Shown piece by piece: positions 1,045 to 8,611 of a stretch of 64,000 nucleotides of DNA. Under the pieces are notes generated by a model. It searched no databases and was not told where the DNA came from. It saw only the letters and a list, made by a program, of their open reading frames with translations. Position 1 is the first letter of the stretch. Each line of letters starts with the position of its first letter. Source of the stretch: Streptomyces venezuelae (GTDB lineage: Bacteria; Actinomycetota; Actinomycetes; Streptomycetales; Streptomycetaceae); NCBI RefSeq assembly GCF_008642315.1, contig NZ_CP029192.1, forward strand, positions 7,130,001 through 7,194,000, in the 5' to 3' direction. The position numbers and the translations under genes are program-made.

Positions 1045-2316
1045 TCACAGCACGTCCCCGTACTCGCTGACGGCCCCTTCCGGAGCCAGCGCGTTGACGT
1101 AGTGGCCGGGCCCGTGGTCCTCGAAGGAGTACGTGAACGGGATCGTCCGCGTCAGCGCCAGACGCGCCGCGAAGAACGCGAGCGGCGCCACCACCGCGAG
1201 CCCCGCGAGGCTGTCCATCTGCGGATAGTGCAGGCCCGGGTCGTGCACCTCGGCCCAGCCGCCCGCCCGGGGCCCCCGCGCGAGCTCGGACAGCGAGCGC
1301 CCCGCGGCCCGCGCCCTGCGCCCCGCGTTGCGGCGCAGCTGCCCGCGGAGCAGGTCGCCCGGCAGCGAGACCGCGTCGATCGCCGTCTCCGCGGCGAGGG
1401 CCAGCGCCCCCTCCGGTACGCCGCGCGGCCTGCGGTAGTGGAACTCCCGGCCGAAGGGGGCGTAAGGGCCGACGGGCCGGGGCGGCAGCGCGGGCACGAC
1501 GTCGCGGTCGAAGATGTAGCGCAGGAGCCGGTCGCGCAGGACGTGCTCGCCGCGGTGGTCGGTCGCCGCCGCGCACGCCTCGGCGAACTCGGGGCCGCCG
1601 AGCAGCGGCTGGCCGAAGGTGTAGACGGCCCGCAGACGTTCGGCGATGAGCCGGTATCGCTTCTCGTGGGTCAGGACCACGCCCATCAGCGCGGCCATCG
1701 CGCCGCCCAGGCTGTGCCCGGTGATGTACAGCGCCTCCATGCCGTCGCCGCGCACGCCCGTCTCCGAGGGGTCGACCGACTCGCCGCGCGCGGCCCGCTC
1801 CAGGGCCTGCATGATGAGGTGACGGGTGGCGCGCATGTTGCGGTAGAAACCGGCGTGGACCTGGTGGCGCGTGCCGGCCAGCTCCACGGAGAGTGTCTCG
1901 GGGCGCACGTCGGCATCGGTGAGGATGCTGATGATGTCCTCGGGCTGAGTGCCGCGGTAGCAGAGGATCACCACCCGCCGGTCCTTGTCCTGGATCAGAT
2001 AGGCGGCCGATGCGATGTACATGGCGTCGACGCGCTGCTCGAAGACCCGGCAGCGGTTCTCCTCCAGACCGAGCCTCGACATGATCATCGCGACGGTGTC
2101 CGGGTCGCCCACCCGGCCGACCCCCGCGTACGCGTACGCCGCACAGGTCGCCATGGTGTGCGGGACGGGTCCCTCCGTCTCGGGCGGCCCCTTCTCCGCG
2201 GCGAGCCGGTCCACGAGATCCCGGTGGACGGGGAAGCCGCCGGGCCCGCCCGCGGTGGGCTCCTTGAGCGGGCGCAGATCGGCGAAGCGCGGTCCCCTGG
2301 CGAAGTCGTCCCGCAT
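1045..2316 (-). CDS. class 3 (fungal-type) lipase/esterase
   Basis: A 423-residue alpha/beta hydrolase of the lipase class 3 family. Visible family marks are the YRGT loop (residues 120-123), the nucleophile elbow GHSLGG with Ser202, the acid residue in DRDVVPALPP (Asp272) and a C-terminal His in DHGPGHYVNAL. No signal peptide is seen, so it is probably cytoplasmic or membrane associated. ATG 2316 was chosen because it follows a GGGGGGAC ribosome binding site. The reading frame stays open far upstream on this strand, but that is antisense to the heme peroxidase gene. It is transcribed divergently from the heme fusion gene. Family members release fatty acids from acyl lipids, which would supply the substrate class expected for that dioxygenase; this link is inference. 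Confidence 0.85.
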   Translation of the reverse strand: MRDDFARGPRFADLRPLKEPTAGGPGGFPVHRDLVDRLAAEKGPPETEGPVPHTMATCAAYAYAGVGRVGDPDTVAMIMSRLGLEENRCRVFEQRVDAMYIASAAYLIQDKDRRVVILCYRGTQPEDIISILTDADVRPETLSVELAGTRHQVHAGFYRNMRATRHLIMQALERAARGESVDPSETGVRGDGMEALYITGHSLGGAMAALMGVVLTHEKRYRLIAERLRAVYTFGQPLLGGPEFAEACAAATDHRGEHVLRDRLLRYIFDRDVVPALPPRPVGPYAPFGREFHYRRPRGVPEGALALAAETAIDAVSLPGDLLRGQLRRNAGRRARAAGRSLSELARGPRAGGWAEVHDPGLHYPQMDSLAGLAVVAPLAFFAARLALTRTIPFTYSFEDHGPGHYVNALAPEGAVSEYGDVL

Positions 2317-2736: not shown

Positions 2737-5625
2737 ATGGCCGACACCGGACAGCACCAGCAGAGTTACGAGCGCTACATGGGCGGCAGCCCGGAAGCGG
2801 AGCGACGCCTCTTCGAGCGCCTGGCCAAGGAACTGATGAAGGTCCAGGAGAAGAACCGGCGCGCGGCACGGGCGGCCACACCCGAGCGCGCCCTGCACGC
2901 CAAGGCCGCACTCGGCGTGGAGAACGCACGCCTGCGCTTCCACGACGACCTGCCGGCCTCGCTGCGCGGCGGCTTCGCGCAGCCCGGCGCCGAGTACCCG
3001 GCGACCGTGCGGCTCTCCAACGCGAGCGGCATCCGCCAGGCCGACGGAGCGCCCGACCTGCGCGGCGCCGCCGTGCGCGTCACCGTCTCCGCCGAGGAGA
3101 GCCACGACCTGCTCGCCACCAACCACCCGGTCTCGCACGCCCGTGACGCCCGCGAGTTCGTCGCCTTCGCGAAGGCCATGGCGGGCGCCACGACCACGCT
3201 CCAGAAGGCCGTCGGGCTCTTCGTGAAGCTGCCGCTCGCCGTCGGCGTGGCCACCGCCACCCGTATGCGCCGCAACGTGCAGGCCGCCGCCCGGCACACC
3301 GTGAACAGCCTCGCCGCGGAGACGTACTGGAGCCGCAGCGCCATCCTGTGGGGCGAGGCCGGACCGGTCCGCTACCTGCTGCGGCCCTCCGGCGGCAGCG
3401 CCACCGCCACCCGCTCCGACCCCGAGCGCCGCGACCCGCAGTACCTGCGCCGCGAGCTCGAGACCCGGCTCGCCCGGCAGGACGTCACCTTCGACCTGTG
3501 CCTCCAGCGGTACGTCGACGAGCGGCGTACCCCCGTCGAGGACGGCTCCGTCGAATGGCTGGAGTCCGTGGCCCCCGCCGTGTCCGTGGCCACCCTCACC
3601 GTGCCGAGCCAGGACCTCGACACGGCGGAGGCCCGCGCCGCGGGCGGCCGCGTCGAAGTGACCGGCTTCAACCCGTGGTTCACCACGGACGAGTTCCGTC
3701 CGCTCGGCAACCTCAACCGCGCCCGCAAGTCCGCGTACGAGGCGAGCGCCGCACACCGCCACGGCCTGCGCTTCGTCACCGGCGAACCGCTGCGCAACAC
3801 GGTCCTCGGCGTGCCCGTGGCCGCCGCCTTCCGGCTCCTGAACCGGTACGTGCCCTGGCACAAGCTGCCCGTCGAGGCGGGCCTGCTCAACCTCGTCTTC
3901 CTCCGCAAGGCGCTGCGCCGCCTCAACCTCGTCGACACCGACGTGCACGAGGCGCCGCCCAGGACGACGCGGGTGCCCGCGCCGGTCGACGAGCAGCTGC
4001 GCACCGCCCGGTCCTACGACGGAACGTACAACGACCTCTCGAAGCCCTCGATGGGAGCCGTGGGCGCCGCCTTCGGCCGCAACCTCAAGCCCGTCTACCG
4101 GCCCGACCTCTTCGACGTCCCGAACCCCGTCACCGTCAGCCGGCAGCTCCTGCACCGCGACACGTTCCTGCCCGCGACGTCACTGAACGTCCTCGCCGCC
4201 GCCTGGATCCAGTTCCAGGTCCACGACTGGGTCAACCACCGGCGGTACAAGCCCGGCGGCAAGTCCGTCGAGGTGCCGTTGCCGCCCGGCACCAGCTGGC
4301 ACAACACCCCCGGCGGGCCCGCGGAGCACGTGATGCGCTTCGCCGACAACGAGGGCATCGAACTCCCCGGCGACCAGCCGCCCGTCCTCTTCGCCAACAC
4401 CGCGTCGCACTGGTGGGACGGCTCCGAGGTGTACGGCGAGAACGAACACACCGCCCGGTTCCTGCGCGAGCCCGACGGCGGCGCCAAACTCCGTCTCGAA
4501 GAGGGCCACTTGCCGATCGCGCAGAACGGCGTCCCGCTCACCGGCTTCGCCGACAACTGGTGGCTCGGCCTCAGCGCCATGCACACGCTCTTCGCCCGCG
4601 AGCACAACGCGGTCTGCGACGCGCTGCGCCACGCCTACCCGTCGATGAGCCAGGAGAGCGTCTACCACACCGCCCGTCTCGTCGTCTCCGCACTCATCGC
4701 GAAGATCCACACGGTGGAGTGGACCCCGGCGATCCTCGCCACCGAGGCCATCGACATAGGCCTGCACACCAACTGGGACGGACCGCCCAACAGTTGGCTG
4801 AACAAGCTCGGCCTCTGGCTCCTGGAGGCCCACTCGCTGACCGGCATTCCCGCGACGCTGCCGGACCACCACAGCGCGCCGTACTCCCTGACGGAGGACT
4901 TCGTCACCGTCTACCGCATGCACCCGCTCATCCCCGACGACTACGAACTGCGCGAGCACCGCTTCGGGCAGCGCCTCGAAACCCTCGGGTTCAACGACAT
5001 CCAGGGGCGCGCCGCCGAGGGCGCCATCCGCAAGACGGGCCTCGCCGACACGCTCTACTCCTTCGGCATCGCCCACCCCGGCGCGATCACCCTGCACAAC
5101 TTCCCGCGCGCGCTCCAGCGGTTCGAGCGCGACGGCGAACTCATCGACCTGTCCGTCGTCGACCTCGTCCGCACCCGCAGGCGCGGCGTGCCCCGCTACA
5201 ACGACTTCCGCGAGGGCCTGCACAAGCAGCGCATCCGCCGCTTCGAGGACCTGTCGCAGGACCCCGAGACGGTGGCCCGCCTCAAGGACGTCTACCGCTC
5301 CGTCGACGAGATCGACACCGTGGTCGGCCTGTTCGCCGAGAACCCGCCGCACGGATTCGGCTTCAGCGACACCGCGTTCCGCATCTTCATCCTGATGGCC
5401 ACGCGGCGCCTGCAGAGCGACCGCTTCCTGACCGTCGACTTCCGCCCCGAGATCTACACGCCGCTCGGCATCGACTGGGTGCAGAAGGGCGGCATGAACT
5501 CGGTGCTGCTGCGCCACTGCCCGGAGCTCGCGGGCCTGCTCCCGCGCGGGGCGAGCGCGTTCGCACCGTGGCGACAGGTACAGCAGACGACCGACGGGGA
5601 CGAGGGCGGACGTGCCGACGGCTGA
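2737..5625 (+). CDS. double-heme fusion: catalase-like domain + alpha-dioxygenase-type heme peroxidase
   Basis: A 962-residue two-domain protein. Residues ~1-400 follow the catalase fold: distal His54 in ALHAK, VRLSNA (catalase VRFSTV), distal Asn129 in ATNHP, and a proximal R330-x-x-x-Y334. The His-Asn and His-Tyr spacings (75 and 280) are close to those of catalase. Residues ~420-962 match fatty acid alpha-dioxygenases and related animal-type heme peroxidases: distal His496 in QFQVHDW, WWDGSEVYG, FAREHNAVCDALR, and V-Y726-R-M-H729 with the radical Tyr and proximal His. The Tyr/His spacing resembles plant alpha-DOX. Alpha-DOX makes 2-hydroperoxy fatty acids; catalase-like domains in other fusions rearrange or remove lipid hydroperoxides. 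The combined activity is inference. ATG 2737 follows AGGAAGAGG. The 3' end overlaps the next gene by 14 bases. Confidence 0.88.
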   Translation: MADTGQHQQSYERYMGGSPEAERRLFERLAKELMKVQEKNRRAARAATPERALHAKAALGVENARLRFHDDLPASLRGGFAQPGAEYPATVRLSNASGIRQADGAPDLRGAAVRVTVSAEESHDLLATNHPVSHARDAREFVAFAKAMAGATTTLQKAVGLFVKLPLAVGVATATRMRRNVQAAARHTVNSLAAETYWSRSAILWGEAGPVRYLLRPSGGSATATRSDPERRDPQYLRRELETRLARQDVTFDLCLQRYVDERRTPVEDGSVEWLESVAPAVSVATLTVPSQDLDTAEARAAGGRVEVTGFNPWFTTDEFRPLGNLNRARKSAYEASAAHRHGLRFVTGEPLRNTVLGVPVAAAFRLLNRYVPWHKLPVEAGLLNLVFLRKALRRLNLVDTDVHEAPPRTTRVPAPVDEQLRTARSYDGTYNDLSKPSMGAVGAAFGRNLKPVYRPDLFDVPNPVTVSRQLLHRDTFLPATSLNVLAAAWIQFQVHDWVNHRRYKPGGKSVEVPLPPGTSWHNTPGGPAEHVMRFADNEGIELPGDQPPVLFANTASHWWDGSEVYGENEHTARFLREPDGGAKLRLEEGHLPIAQNGVPLTGFADNWWLGLSAMHTLFAREHNAVCDALRHAYPSMSQESVYHTARLVVSALIAKIHTVEWTPAILATEAIDIGLHTNWDGPPNSWLNKLGLWLLEAHSLTGIPATLPDHHSAPYSLTEDFVTVYRMHPLIPDDYELREHRFGQRLETLGFNDIQGRAAEGAIRKTGLADTLYSFGIAHPGAITLHNFPRALQRFERDGELIDLSVVDLVRTRRRGVPRYNDFREGLHKQRIRRFEDLSQDPETVARLKDVYRSVDEIDTVVGLFAENPPHGFGFSDTAFRIFILMATRRLQSDRFLTVDFRPEIYTPLGIDWVQKGGMNSVLLRHCPELAGLLPRGASAFAPWRQVQQTTDGDEGGRADG

Positions 5626-7027
5626 GGCCGGACCGGGGGGCCGGGGCGAGCGCACCACCGGCCCCGGCCCCGGCCACCCCGGGCTCGGCGATCTCTTCGC
5701 CCGGCCCCTCCTGGAGACCGTCTGGCGGCGGCGTACGCACCGGGTGAGCCGCGGTGCCGCCGTGCCCGCCGGGTCGATGAGCTACCGGTCGCCGCACGAG
5801 CCGCGGCCGCTGTCCGAGCTGGAGGAGGCGGTGCTCGTCGCGCTGACGGGGTGCACCGGACTCACCATGCCGGACCGCCCCTTCGACGATCCGCGCGACG
5901 GCAAGCCCATCATGGCCAAGCCCAACATGACCATGGCGGGCCGGACCGCGGGCAGCCCCGACAACGCTCAGGGCACGCATTTCTTCCTGATCAACGACTC
6001 GGGCACGTACTTCCTGCGCCGGCTGCCCCCGGCCCCCTCCACGCCCCTCGACGCGACCGCCCTGGTGGAGCGGGCACGGCAGGCCAAGGTCCGCGTCCTC
6101 GACCACCGCCTGGACGTCGCCGATGGCATGCGCGACTTCCCGGCCTACCTCGACTCCAACCGCTTCCTGTCCAACTTGCCGGGAACCACCGTCCTGTTCC
6201 CCGTCGTGGACCTCTCCCACCAGTACATCAACGCCCTCATGTACCTGCTCACCCAGCCGGACGACGTCCGCCCCACCCTGGTCGACGACCGCAACTTCTA
6301 CCGCCCGGCGGGTGTCAAGAAATGGGTCCGCAACGGGTTCCTGAACGGCGACATCAAGCTGCCGCTCGGCGCGCTCGGCCCGCTGCGCACCCAGATCGAG
6401 GCGGACCTGCTCCTGCAGAACCTGATGCTGACCGCCGAGGCGATGGGCCTCGGCGCGTGGATCCACGCCTCCATCAGCCCCCAGATCGCCCTGGGCGACC
6501 CCAAGTTCTCCCGCGCCTACGGCCGCATGCTGGGCTTCACCTTCGTCACCCCGCGCTGGCGCCTGCCGGACGTGTGGCGCTGGCACGTCCCGCTCCCCAA
6601 GTACGCCGACCTGCGCTCGCACCCCGTCGGCCTGAAGTCCCCGGAGGGCGAGCCGCTCATCGAGGCGGCGTGCCCGCCGGCGCACCGCACCATGGCGGCG
6701 GCGGTCGACGCGGTGATCCGCGCCAAGTTCGGCCCCGGCGGAACGTACGGCGACAAGGACGTCTTCTCCCGCATCTACAAGGAGGGGTACGGGCAGCGGT
6801 ACCTCGCGGAGGCGAGCGAGTACGAGGACCGGGTCGTGGAGTGCGCGCGGGACATCTGCGCGTACATCCTGCGCACACACCGCCGCTTCCCCGCGCACAC
6901 CGACGCGATCCACGTCCCCGGCGTCTGGCTCCAGGTCCACCACGTCGAGACCGACTACTACGACCGGTTCTTCGCCGACGGCCTGACGGACGCCCACCGC
7001 CGCCACGAAGCACTGTGGGACACGTGA
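5612..7027 (+). CDS. nitroreductase-fold flavoprotein coupled to the heme fusion
   Basis: A 471-residue protein starting with GTG at 5612, 14 bases inside the end of the heme-fusion gene, so translation is probably coupled. The segment LLLQNLMLTAEAMGLGAWIH (about residues 269-288) is the FMN-nitroreductase signature helix, and the N-terminal WRRRTHRVSRG resembles the phosphate-binding arginines of that fold. The protein is about twice the usual nitroreductase length, so it may be a pseudo-dimer or carry an extra domain; the last 150 residues were not assigned. No signal peptide or membrane segment is seen. By context it may supply or accept electrons for products of the heme enzyme, for example reducing an aldehyde, enone or hydroperoxide. 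Specific function unknown. Confidence 0.65.
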   Translation: MPTAEAGPGGRGERTTGPGPGHPGLGDLFARPLLETVWRRRTHRVSRGAAVPAGSMSYRSPHEPRPLSELEEAVLVALTGCTGLTMPDRPFDDPRDGKPIMAKPNMTMAGRTAGSPDNAQGTHFFLINDSGTYFLRRLPPAPSTPLDATALVERARQAKVRVLDHRLDVADGMRDFPAYLDSNRFLSNLPGTTVLFPVVDLSHQYINALMYLLTQPDDVRPTLVDDRNFYRPAGVKKWVRNGFLNGDIKLPLGALGPLRTQIEADLLLQNLMLTAEAMGLGAWIHASISPQIALGDPKFSRAYGRMLGFTFVTPRWRLPDVWRWHVPLPKYADLRSHPVGLKSPEGEPLIEAACPPAHRTMAAAVDAVIRAKFGPGGTYGDKDVFSRIYKEGYGQRYLAEASEYEDRVVECARDICAYILRTHRRFPAHTDAIHVPGVWLQVHHVETDYYDRFFADGLTDAHRRHEALWDT

Positions 7028-7045: not shown

Positions 7046-8611
7046 TCACGCCAGCGGCGGGACCGTACAGGCGATCAGGGAGGGTCCGGGTTCCGCGAGC
7101 CCCCGCTTCAGGAGCGCCGCGAACTCCTCGGCCGTGGCCGCCCGTTCCGCCGGCACGCCCATCCCGCGCGCCAGCGCGACGAAGTCGAGGGGCGGCCCCG
7201 ACAGGTCGAGGAGCCGCCGCGCCCGCTCCCCGCCCGCCACCGCCCCCACCGCTTCCAGCTCCAGGTTGAGGATCGCGTACGACCCGTTGTCGTAGACGAC
7301 CGTCGTGACGTCGAGCCCCTCCCGCGCCTGCGTCCACAGCGCCTGCAGCGTGTACATCGACGCGCCGTCCCCGACCAGCGCCAGCACGGGCCGGTCGGGA
7401 CAGGCGACCCCCGCGCCCACCGCGAGCGGCAGCCCCTGTCCCATGGCGCCGCCGGTCAGCGTCAGCCAGTCGTGCGGCGGCGCCCCCGCGGTCGCGCCCG
7501 GCAGCCACAGCCCCGAGGTGTTCGCCTCGTCGACGACGACGGCGCCCTCCGGCAGCAGCGCCCCGATCACCGCGGCCGCCGACTCGGCCGTCAGCTCACC
7601 GCTGGGCAGCGCGGGCCGTGCCGCCTGCGCCCGGACGCGCCGCGCGCCGGGCCCCACCACTTCGGCGAGCCCTTGGAGCGCTGCCGTCACGTCCTCGGCG
7701 CCCGCCGCGAGCGTGTGCACCGCGCAGCCCTGCGGCACCAGCGCGCCGCCCTGCCCGGGATACGCGAAGAAGGTCACCGGCGACGCGGCTCCGGCGAGCA
7801 CCAGGTGCCGTACGCCCGCCAGCTGGCGCGTCGCACCGGCCGCCAGGTAGGCGAGCCGCTCGACGGCGGGTCGGCCCGCGCCCCGCTCCATGCGGGCGGG
7901 GAAGGTCTCGCAGAGCAGCTCGGCGCCGGTCGCCGCGGCGATCCGCCCCGCCGCCTCGAGACCGGCCCCGCGCACGGCGTCCCCGCCGAGCAGCAGGGCG
8001 GCGCCCTCACCGGACCGCAGCGCCCCGGCCGCGCCCGTCACGGCGTCCACGGAGACCAGGCCGTGCCGCGCCGGGGCGGGGCGCTGCGGTCCGGTGAGGG
8101 CGCCGCCCGCCTGCGACCAGGACACGTCGGCGGGCACGACCAGCGTCGCGACGGCGCCGGGCGGGCCGGTCGCCGCGGTGACGGCGGCGGCCACGTCACC
8201 GGCGAGTTCGGTGGCGTAGTAGGTGCGCCGCGTCCAGGCCGAGACGGTGCGGGCGAGCGCCCCGATGTCGGACTCCAGGGGCGCGTCGAGCCGCTTGTGG
8301 TGCAGGGCGTGGTCGCCCACGACGTTGACGACGGGGGTGGCGGCCCGGCGCGCGTTGTGCAGGTTGGGCAGGCCGCCCGCGAGGCCGGGGCCGAGGTGCA
8401 GGAGCGTGCACGCGGGGCGCCGTGTCATCCGTCCGTAGCCGTCGGCGGCGCCCGTGGCCACGCCCTCGAAGAGGCAGAGCACGGGCCGCAGTTCGGGCGT
8501 CTCGTCCAGGGCGGCCACGAAGTGCATCTCGGAGGTGCCGGGGTTGGCGAAGCACGCGCGGACGCCTCCGTCCACGAGTCCGTTGATCAGGATCTGCGCT
8601 CCGGTCGGCAT
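7046..8611 (-). CDS. ThDP-dependent enzyme (acetolactate synthase/benzoylformate decarboxylase-like)
   Basis: A 521-residue thiamine-diphosphate enzyme with the three usual domains. The N-terminal Pyr domain has the activating Glu in CLFEGVATGAADGYG. The C-terminal PP domain has the ThDP/Mg motif GDGASMYTLQ...YDNGSYA. The central FAD/nucleotide-type domain looks shortened. Such proteins are often annotated acetolactate synthase large subunit homologues, but no regulatory subunit gene is adjacent. Decarboxylation or carboligation of a 2-oxo acid is the safest prediction. ATG 8611 was chosen because translation reads MPTGAQILINGLVDGGV from there. The GlxA regulator is encoded 73 bases upstream on the same strand, so the two may be co-transcribed. 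Confidence 0.85.
   Translation of the reverse strand: MPTGAQILINGLVDGGVRACFANPGTSEMHFVAALDETPELRPVLCLFEGVATGAADGYGRMTRRPACTLLHLGPGLAGGLPNLHNARRAATPVVNVVGDHALHHKRLDAPLESDIGALARTVSAWTRRTYYATELAGDVAAAVTAATGPPGAVATLVVPADVSWSQAGGALTGPQRPAPARHGLVSVDAVTGAAGALRSGEGAALLLGGDAVRGAGLEAAGRIAAATGAELLCETFPARMERGAGRPAVERLAYLAAGATRQLAGVRHLVLAGAASPVTFFAYPGQGGALVPQGCAVHTLAAGAEDVTAALQGLAEVVGPGARRVRAQAARPALPSGELTAESAAAVIGALLPEGAVVVDEANTSGLWLPGATAGAPPHDWLTLTGGAMGQGLPLAVGAGVACPDRPVLALVGDGASMYTLQALWTQAREGLDVTTVVYDNGSYAILNLELEAVGAVAGGERARRLLDLSGPPLDFVALARGMGVPAERAATAEEFAALLKRGLAEPGPSLIACTVPPLA

Follow-up and report, generated by a model that had tools for sequence, protein, structure and literature searches.

Alpha-dioxygenases (alpha-DOX) convert fatty acids to (R)-2-hydroperoxy acids, which decarboxylate spontaneously to Cn-1 aldehydes and also give 2-hydroxy acids (PMC8720084). 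Known catalase-related enzymes include allene oxide synthases (AOS) and hydroperoxide lyases (HPL) (PMC13049297, PMC5617202), and fusions of a catalase-related domain with a lipoxygenase have been described (PMC11719350, PMC5617202). One review presents the catalase-related lyase that works with the Nostoc 10S-dioxygenase as a separate gene (PMC13049297), and another mentions a cyanobacterial fusion protein (PMC11719350). The two seem to disagree, if they mean one system; either way, the principle of a heme dioxygenase with a catalase-related partner is already known. Here we analyse a gene of Streptomyces venezuelae that joins a catalase-related domain to an alpha-dioxygenase (the CAT-DOX fusion), within a stretch of 64,000 nucleotides (contig NZ_CP029192.1, positions 7,130,001 to 7,194,000) that we call the window. 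Actinobacterial alpha-DOX sequences are already in the tree of PMC8720084, for which sequences >1000 aa were discarded and N-terminal alignment columns 0-368 were trimmed; its main text never mentions 'catalase', and CAT-DOX fusions may be present unseen in its data set.

Anatomy of the CAT-DOX fusion

The fusion is a single polypeptide in which a minimal catalase-related domain directly abuts a complete fatty-acid alpha-dioxygenase. Its features are as follows, in window coordinates, with residue counts taken from an alignment of 48 chosen rows, of which 46 have a catalase-related half and two are stand-alone cyanobacterial alpha-DOX.

2737..5625, + strand: CAT-DOX fusion gene, one open reading frame, 962 aa
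2815..3771, + strand: catalase-related domain, residues ~27-345
2896..2898, + strand: His54, distal residue of the catalase-related site (His in 41/46 rows)
3121..3123, + strand: Asn129, distal Asn (Asn in 37/46 rows, Ser in 9)
3724..3738, + strand: Arg330-x-x-x-Tyr334, proximal heme-ligand motif (46/46 rows)
3784..5583, + strand: alpha-dioxygenase domain, residues ~350-949
4222..4224, + strand: His496, distal His (rice His157), from alignment and rice mapping
4708..4725, + strand: His658 and Thr663, predicted to bind the substrate carboxylate (rice His311 and Thr316), from the same two sources
4912..4923, + strand: Tyr726, catalytic radical Tyr, and His729, proximal His (rice Tyr379 and His382), likewise
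5404..5409, + strand: Arg890-Arg891 (Arg891 is rice Arg559), likewise

In a Pfam scan of the protein (E up to 1) the sole matches were PF00199 in the N-terminal half and PF03098 in the C-terminal half. The two-domain layout bears out an earlier reading of the DNA made from its letters alone (the sequence-only reading), which had placed two heme enzymes on one chain; the residues that it named for both predicted heme sites all stand where it put them, in the alignment of relatives and, for the alpha-DOX half, in the mapping to the rice chain. No lipoxygenase domain was found in the same scan, so the protein is not a catalase-lipoxygenase fusion.

The C-terminal half finds plant alpha-DOX as its top match both by sequence and by fold, and these are its nearest solved relatives. 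Besides PF03098 it has the catalytic Tyr, the proximal and distal His and the carboxylate-binding His/Thr/Arg of the family. His496, His658, Thr663, Tyr726, His729, Arg890 and Arg891 are invariant (48/48 rows) and align with positions 160, 314, 319, 382, 385, 561 and 562 of the rice alpha-DOX chain (4kvj). The chain is offset by 3 from the published numbering, as set by Tyr379 in the title of the PDB entry, giving His157, His311, Thr316, Tyr379, His382, Arg558 and Arg559 as the rice equivalents. His311 and Arg559 are named in the title of a published study, and Thr316 completes the carboxylate-binding set. Sequence, fold and substrate-binding residues agree that the C-terminal half is, as judged from its sequence, a true alpha-dioxygenase, as the sequence-only reading had held.

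Fold and Pfam match also place the N-terminal half in the catalase superfamily, again as had been proposed, and it has the proximal Arg-x-x-x-Tyr motif; for either half the fold comparison leaves other families possible. At ~320-345 aa it is shorter than a true catalase. The catalase profile covered 30-255 of 383, and the listed catalase chains have at least 483 aa, except for one 226-aa piece of HPII. This protein keeps both the distal His and the distal Asn that true catalases have; across the fused rows the two residues vary, and the five rows with Gln instead of His54 are every one Actinoplanes or Paractinoplanes. On the alignment, the heme-holding side of this pocket is fixed and its distal side is variable. 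The distal side of true catalases is not known to vary in such a way.

The sequence-only reading had cited coral allene oxide synthase as a known case of a catalase-like domain that processes lipid hydroperoxides. The coral-type enzyme has Thr66-His67 together with Asn137 (PMC5617202). The present protein has Leu53-His54, and Thr is found at position 53 in none of the 48 rows. Allene oxides arise only from peroxides with an adjacent double bond, so none can come from a saturated 2-hydroperoxide, and the closest chemistry has to be sought elsewhere than in coral allene oxide synthase. Among solved structures the N-terminal half is closest to 3e4w, reported to be an organic-peroxide peroxidase with negligible catalase activity; catalase-related peroxidases of this type are known.

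From the anatomy, residues, distribution and linkage observed for these genes we infer a series of reactions, a transfer between the sites and a product. The fusion would be a fatty-acid enzyme of two activities, each at its own heme site, in which the dioxygenase makes a 2-hydroperoxy acid, the catalase-related site converts it and linked enzymes use the product; we give this reading about even odds. A tyrosyl radical at Tyr726 would add O2 at carbon 2 of a free fatty acid to give the (R)-2-hydroperoxy acid, and the catalase-related site would act on it ahead of its spontaneous decarboxylation; the likeliest conversions are a reduction that gives the 2-hydroxy acid and a dehydration that gives the 2-oxo acid. 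A catalase-related fusion makes sense if it diverts the hydroperoxide from decarboxylation to aldehyde.

Distribution and recurrent coupling

The fusion is widespread. The 120 homologues listed, from a total of 6988, are 948-981 aa long with 72-93% identity, and those among them that have names are mostly called 'peroxidase family protein', 'peroxidase' or 'catalase'. This suggests that many proteins labelled 'peroxidase family protein' or 'catalase' are neither. Among 394 genomes of the class 35 matched at E 1e-20, six of them with a full-length CAT-DOX, and among 295 Streptomyces genomes 101 matched at E 1e-12, with 36 full-length fusions; both counts include the window's own genome. In the Streptomyces genomes G447, G535 and G550 both halves matched around a divergent stretch or gap near query residues 509-556. 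The match in G483, G564 and G576, also Streptomyces, was to part of the N-terminal side only.

At least 579 loci were confirmed in a named genome collection, and the best 80, ranked by likeness to this DOX, were kept; 78 of the 80 carry CAT-DOX in this order. Seventy-five of the 78 form a single uninterrupted frame with a near-complete DOX, L235 is uninterrupted up to the contig end that cuts it, and L175 and L209 are split. The 78 loci belong to Streptomyces (36), Nonomuraea, Actinomadura, Actinocorallia, Streptosporangium, Geodermatophilus, Actinoplanes/Paractinoplanes and Pseudonocardia. Further genera are Rhizobium, Mesorhizobium, Phyllobacterium, Roseibium/Labrenzia and Salipiger, with one Rhizobiales genome and metagenome-assembled genomes labelled Rhizobiaceae, Pseudonocardiales, Nitrococcus, Gammaproteobacteria, Myxococcales and Mycobacterium. 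The sequence-only reading, which spoke of Streptomyces, was too narrow: CAT-DOX is found across Actinomycetota, Pseudomonadota and Myxococcota. It had also not noticed the linked genes described below. Plasmid records gave 19 matches, 16 of the 19 with at least 80% query coverage and 14 from Rhizobium. Viral contigs gave no match, and the sole match in a phage collection was a 29% catalase-like one in two records of a single Acinetobacter phage. A mixed catalase alignment, searched at E 1e-30, matched 3/246 genomes, too strict a setting to speak on spread.

Catalase-like and alpha-DOX sequences are coupled in other ways too. In one genus, designated g4, 148 genomes were searched with a protein of the reverse order (L023) and 42 matched. 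Among the fetched loci nine DOX-first (DOX-CAT) fusions have an uninterrupted frame (L148, which is L023, L139-L145 and L147); a tenth listed row (G149:C21, L146) proved on inspection to be a same-strand pair. By coordinates the two genes are adjacent in 14 more g4 genomes, on the same strand in ten and divergent in four. A catalase-like gene lies upstream of a separate alpha-DOX at seven Streptomyces loci, and downstream of one in G033, from another family. Within 9 kb, L184 of Streptomyces ochraceiscleroticus combines the fusion with a stand-alone catalase-like gene and another alpha-DOX.

A tree was made by a quick method with midpoint rooting from 106 of 177 classed DOX domains, the fusions being thinned from 96 to 25. 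The CAT-DOX fusions form a single clade with a Shimodaira-Hasegawa-like approximate likelihood ratio (SH-aLRT) of 100, the only other label inside it being the split fusion L175. The g4 rows form a second clade, and the Streptomyces tandems together with four stand-alone rows a third, each again with SH-aLRT 100. With three separate coupled clades, the coupling either arose more than once or persisted while the order changed. The sequence-only reading had a fatty-acid hydroperoxide made at one site and converted at the second, and recurrence in three alpha-DOX clades and both fusion orders is what such sequential chemistry predicts.

The partners differ at the distal position. The distal His is present in all 19 catalase-like partners of the g4 clade; in 7/7 Streptomyces tandem partners the aligned position holds Asn. 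Partners with Asn for the distal His were seen at L074, L086, L087, L098, L100, L102 and L114, and also at L029 and L072; those that were aligned at the proximal site keep its Tyr and Arg. These partners possibly carry out another heme chemistry. A relationship of the M. avium protein 3e4w to the reverse-order partners was considered and dropped; the one partner tried, L063 of the g4 clade, matched no PDB chain at E 0.001.

These observations bear on two further explanations. The catalase-related half might protect or tune the dioxygenase, clearing excess hydrogen peroxide or controlling how much peroxide is available to start the tyrosyl radical. In favour of this, the protein keeps the distal residues of true catalases, His and Asn, and the title of a published study names the activation of alpha-DOX by peroxide; yet both residues vary in relatives, the seven tandem partners have Asn for His, the domain is minimal and nearest to 3e4w, and a close catalase-like gene is missing at 50 of 58 DOX-only loci. 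We consider a protective role unlikely. More improbable still is that this half is a heme-binding or structural relic beside an alpha-DOX that works alone. The distal pocket does drift in some lineages, but Tyr334 and Arg330 are kept in all 46 rows and the pairing occurs in several arrangements.

Linked genes and the proposed pathway

The genes flanking the fusion in the window are the following.

5612..7027, + strand: gene of a family without assigned function that we call GD, 471 aa, predicted GTG start, overlapping the end of the fusion gene by 14 bases
7046..8611, - strand: thiamine-diphosphate (TPP) enzyme, acetolactate-synthase-like, convergent with GD; a looser association (8/21 loci; 3/78 named loci)
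1045..2316, - strand: class 3 lipase, divergent neighbour of the fusion (10/78 named fusion loci, all Streptomyces)

GD is the gene most closely tied to the fusion. By profile searches it lies near the fusion in 50/78 named loci, including 29/42 outside Streptomyces, and it was found in none of 60 control loci, 59 of them without the fusion. Among the 295 Streptomyces genomes it is present in 22 of the 36 with a full fusion, always at most 2.5 kb away, and in one of the 259 others as a 31% match (Fisher p ~1e-22, kinship ignored); 22 of the 23 matches adjoin CAT-DOX. Seventeen of the 22 genes lie within ~230 bp of the fusion, four of them overlapping it by match ends. GD genes occur among loci L159-L238 as well as in the window. 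Its relatives are mostly 450-473 aa long, and aligned members from across phyla are 63-94% identical to this one.

The start near 5612 is the sole start codon fitting these relatives; the structural model of GD and the first searches with it began at 5777, 55 codons downstream. The AlphaFold model from 5777 has a mean predicted local distance difference test score (pLDDT) of 45.4, too poor for use. GD had no NCBIfam match and no PDB match of note. Against the Pfam nitroreductase family PF00881 the best score was 18.7 bits, below the cut-off of 23.5, with any match in four of seven members. One database source labels a GD member nitroreductase, and in our opinion the N-terminal RRTHR stretch and an internal motif look nitroreductase-like.

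A TPP enzyme of one family lies in 29/78 named fusion loci by profile searches, and in none of the 60 control loci; the TPP enzyme of the window is of a different subfamily. When a regular expression was used to look for the TPP motif, 4/31 of these sequences matched; the pattern was judged too strict, and nothing was drawn from it. A patatin lies near the fusion in 9/78 named loci. None of GD, the TPP enzyme and patatin was found in 20 loci of genus g4. Seven of the 78 loci have a gene for a dihaem cytochrome c peroxidase/RoxA-like protein and one for a 204-aa protein; all seven have GD and none has the usual-family TPP enzyme. In these loci (L210, L211, L213, L217, L218, L224 and L226) the two genes stand between CAT-DOX and GD. 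The same variant was seen in L240, on a conjugative Rhizobium plasmid. Existing annotation of a Phyllobacterium plasmid from a root nodule names a patatin, two thiamine-pyrophosphate-binding pieces, a 'peroxidase family protein' and hypothetical proteins, and that of a conjugative Rhizobium phaseoli plasmid a 'peroxidase family protein', a cytochrome c and two hypothetical proteins, in agreement with the cassette found by profile searches.

A TPP enzyme is also found upstream of alpha-DOX in 13/17 loci of a separate Streptomyces alpha-DOX clade. This second cassette was seen at L064, L066, L069, L070, L071, L088-L094 and L097. In L066, the one locus scanned throughout, the order is TPP enzyme, FAD-linked oxidase, cytochrome P450 and hydrolase (Lipase_3, 21.9 bits against a cut-off of 22), then alpha-DOX, and the oxidase, P450 and hydrolase frames have relatives in 12, 14 and 12 of 14 other loci compared. 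This would be consistent with a 2-hydroxy-acid-type oxidase followed by a 2-oxo-acid enzyme.

Where they are linked, a lipase or patatin would supply the fatty acid to CAT-DOX, the TPP enzyme would use a 2-oxo acid or aldehyde, and GD would be a further step, probably redox. By analogy, the TPP enzyme is expected to receive its 2-hydroxy or 2-oxo acid from the catalase-related site. More tentatively, the whole set may constitute an undescribed lipid pathway, in which fatty acid released by lipase or patatin passes through the 2-hydroperoxide and the 2-oxo or 2-hydroxy acid to the TPP enzyme and GD, giving a new class of oxylipin, for example long-chain acyloins, in soil actinomycetes and, on plasmids, in nodule rhizobia.

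The same linkage can be read differently. If the catalase-related site were a lyase that speeds loss of CO2, the fusion would be a Cn-1 fatty-aldehyde synthase, and the TPP enzyme might join aldehyde and 2-oxo acid as an acyloin. Coral has catalase-related hydroperoxide lyases and the Nostoc 10S-dioxygenase works with one, alpha-DOX reactions usually end in aldehydes (PMC8720084), and the TPP enzymes linked to the fusion are acetolactate-synthase-like. However, the decarboxylation is described as spontaneous, so that an enzyme is less needed, and no aldehyde dehydrogenase or reductase was found among that part of the neighbour genes that was scanned. We think a lyase rather doubtful, though it deserves more weight than a protective role.

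Several observations weigh against the two-step conversion to a 2-hydroxy or 2-oxo acid that we prefer. The catalase-related pocket varies among the fusions (His54 to Gln in 5/46 rows, Asn129 to Ser in 9/46); with Asn in the tandem partners as well, the partners may not all catalyse one reaction. The lack of a catalase-like gene within 1.5 kb in 50/58 loci fetched as DOX-only implies that alpha-DOX needs none. In two g4 genomes (G298 and G739) the genes lie a long way from each other or on separate contigs, in G689 they are on separate contigs, and four g4 genomes have a catalase-like gene with no DOX listed. In the fetched flanks, some of them short, GD was not found at 28/78 fusion loci and the usual-family TPP enzyme was not found at 49/78, and neither appears indispensable to the fusion. 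Three cassette TPP enzymes were scanned and reached the cut-off of none of the 25 NCBIfam families shown. Lastly, the patatin family is also present in 6/60 control loci and is therefore not specific.

Comparison with described systems

The alpha-DOX/catalase fusion, the reverse fusion and the cassette were not found in the titles and abstract openings of the literature searched, which is weak evidence of absence since most subscription papers lie outside that search. As far as searched, the alpha-DOX version of the catalase-related fusion, its breadth and its cassette are new. The sequence-only reading knew of no described system of this kind in Streptomyces; related systems have been described, namely the catalase-lipoxygenase fusions and the cyanobacterial heme dioxygenase with its catalase-related lyase. 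The host organisms are rich in saturated branched fatty acids. The fusion would provide these bacteria, in which oxylipin chemistry is little described, with a self-contained dioxygenase of the alpha-oxidation type and an enzyme to process the hydroperoxide. A testable gene set can be named, with the new family GD tied to it, and the fusion could find use in the biocatalytic production of fatty aldehydes or of 2-hydroxy or 2-oxo fatty acids.

Each described system shares part of this architecture. The catalase-related AOS/HPL-lipoxygenase fusions of coral, Anabaena and Acaryochloris likewise chain a catalase-related domain, N-terminal in coral, to an oxygenase that makes hydroperoxides, but the oxygenase is a non-heme lipoxygenase acting on polyunsaturated substrates, and the Thr of coral AOS is Leu in CAT-DOX. 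Fungal DOX-P450 fusions also carry a dioxygenase and a hydroperoxide-converting heme enzyme on one chain; there the partner is a P450 and the DOX comes first. In Nostoc, a 10S-dioxygenase with a catalase-related hydroperoxide lyase (Brash 2014) provides a heme fatty-acid dioxygenase of the peroxidase-cyclooxygenase superfamily with a catalase-related partner, as here, whereas its oxygenation is at carbon 10 of linoleate and oleate. The 33-kDa catalase-related protein of Mycobacterium avium subsp. paratuberculosis (3e4w/3e4y) resembles the N-terminal half in the Leu-His pair of its distal site; unlike the fusion it stands alone, and the residue aligned with Asn129 is not Asn. The rice, Arabidopsis, CalDOX and LepDOX alpha-dioxygenases have the fold, heme ligands and catalytic Tyr of the C-terminal half, from which 2-hydroperoxidation would be expected of the fusion, and the plant enzymes share its carboxylate-binding His/Thr/Arg. 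The plant chains, of ~620-650 residues, differ in having a single such domain, in front of which the fusion adds a catalase-related domain.

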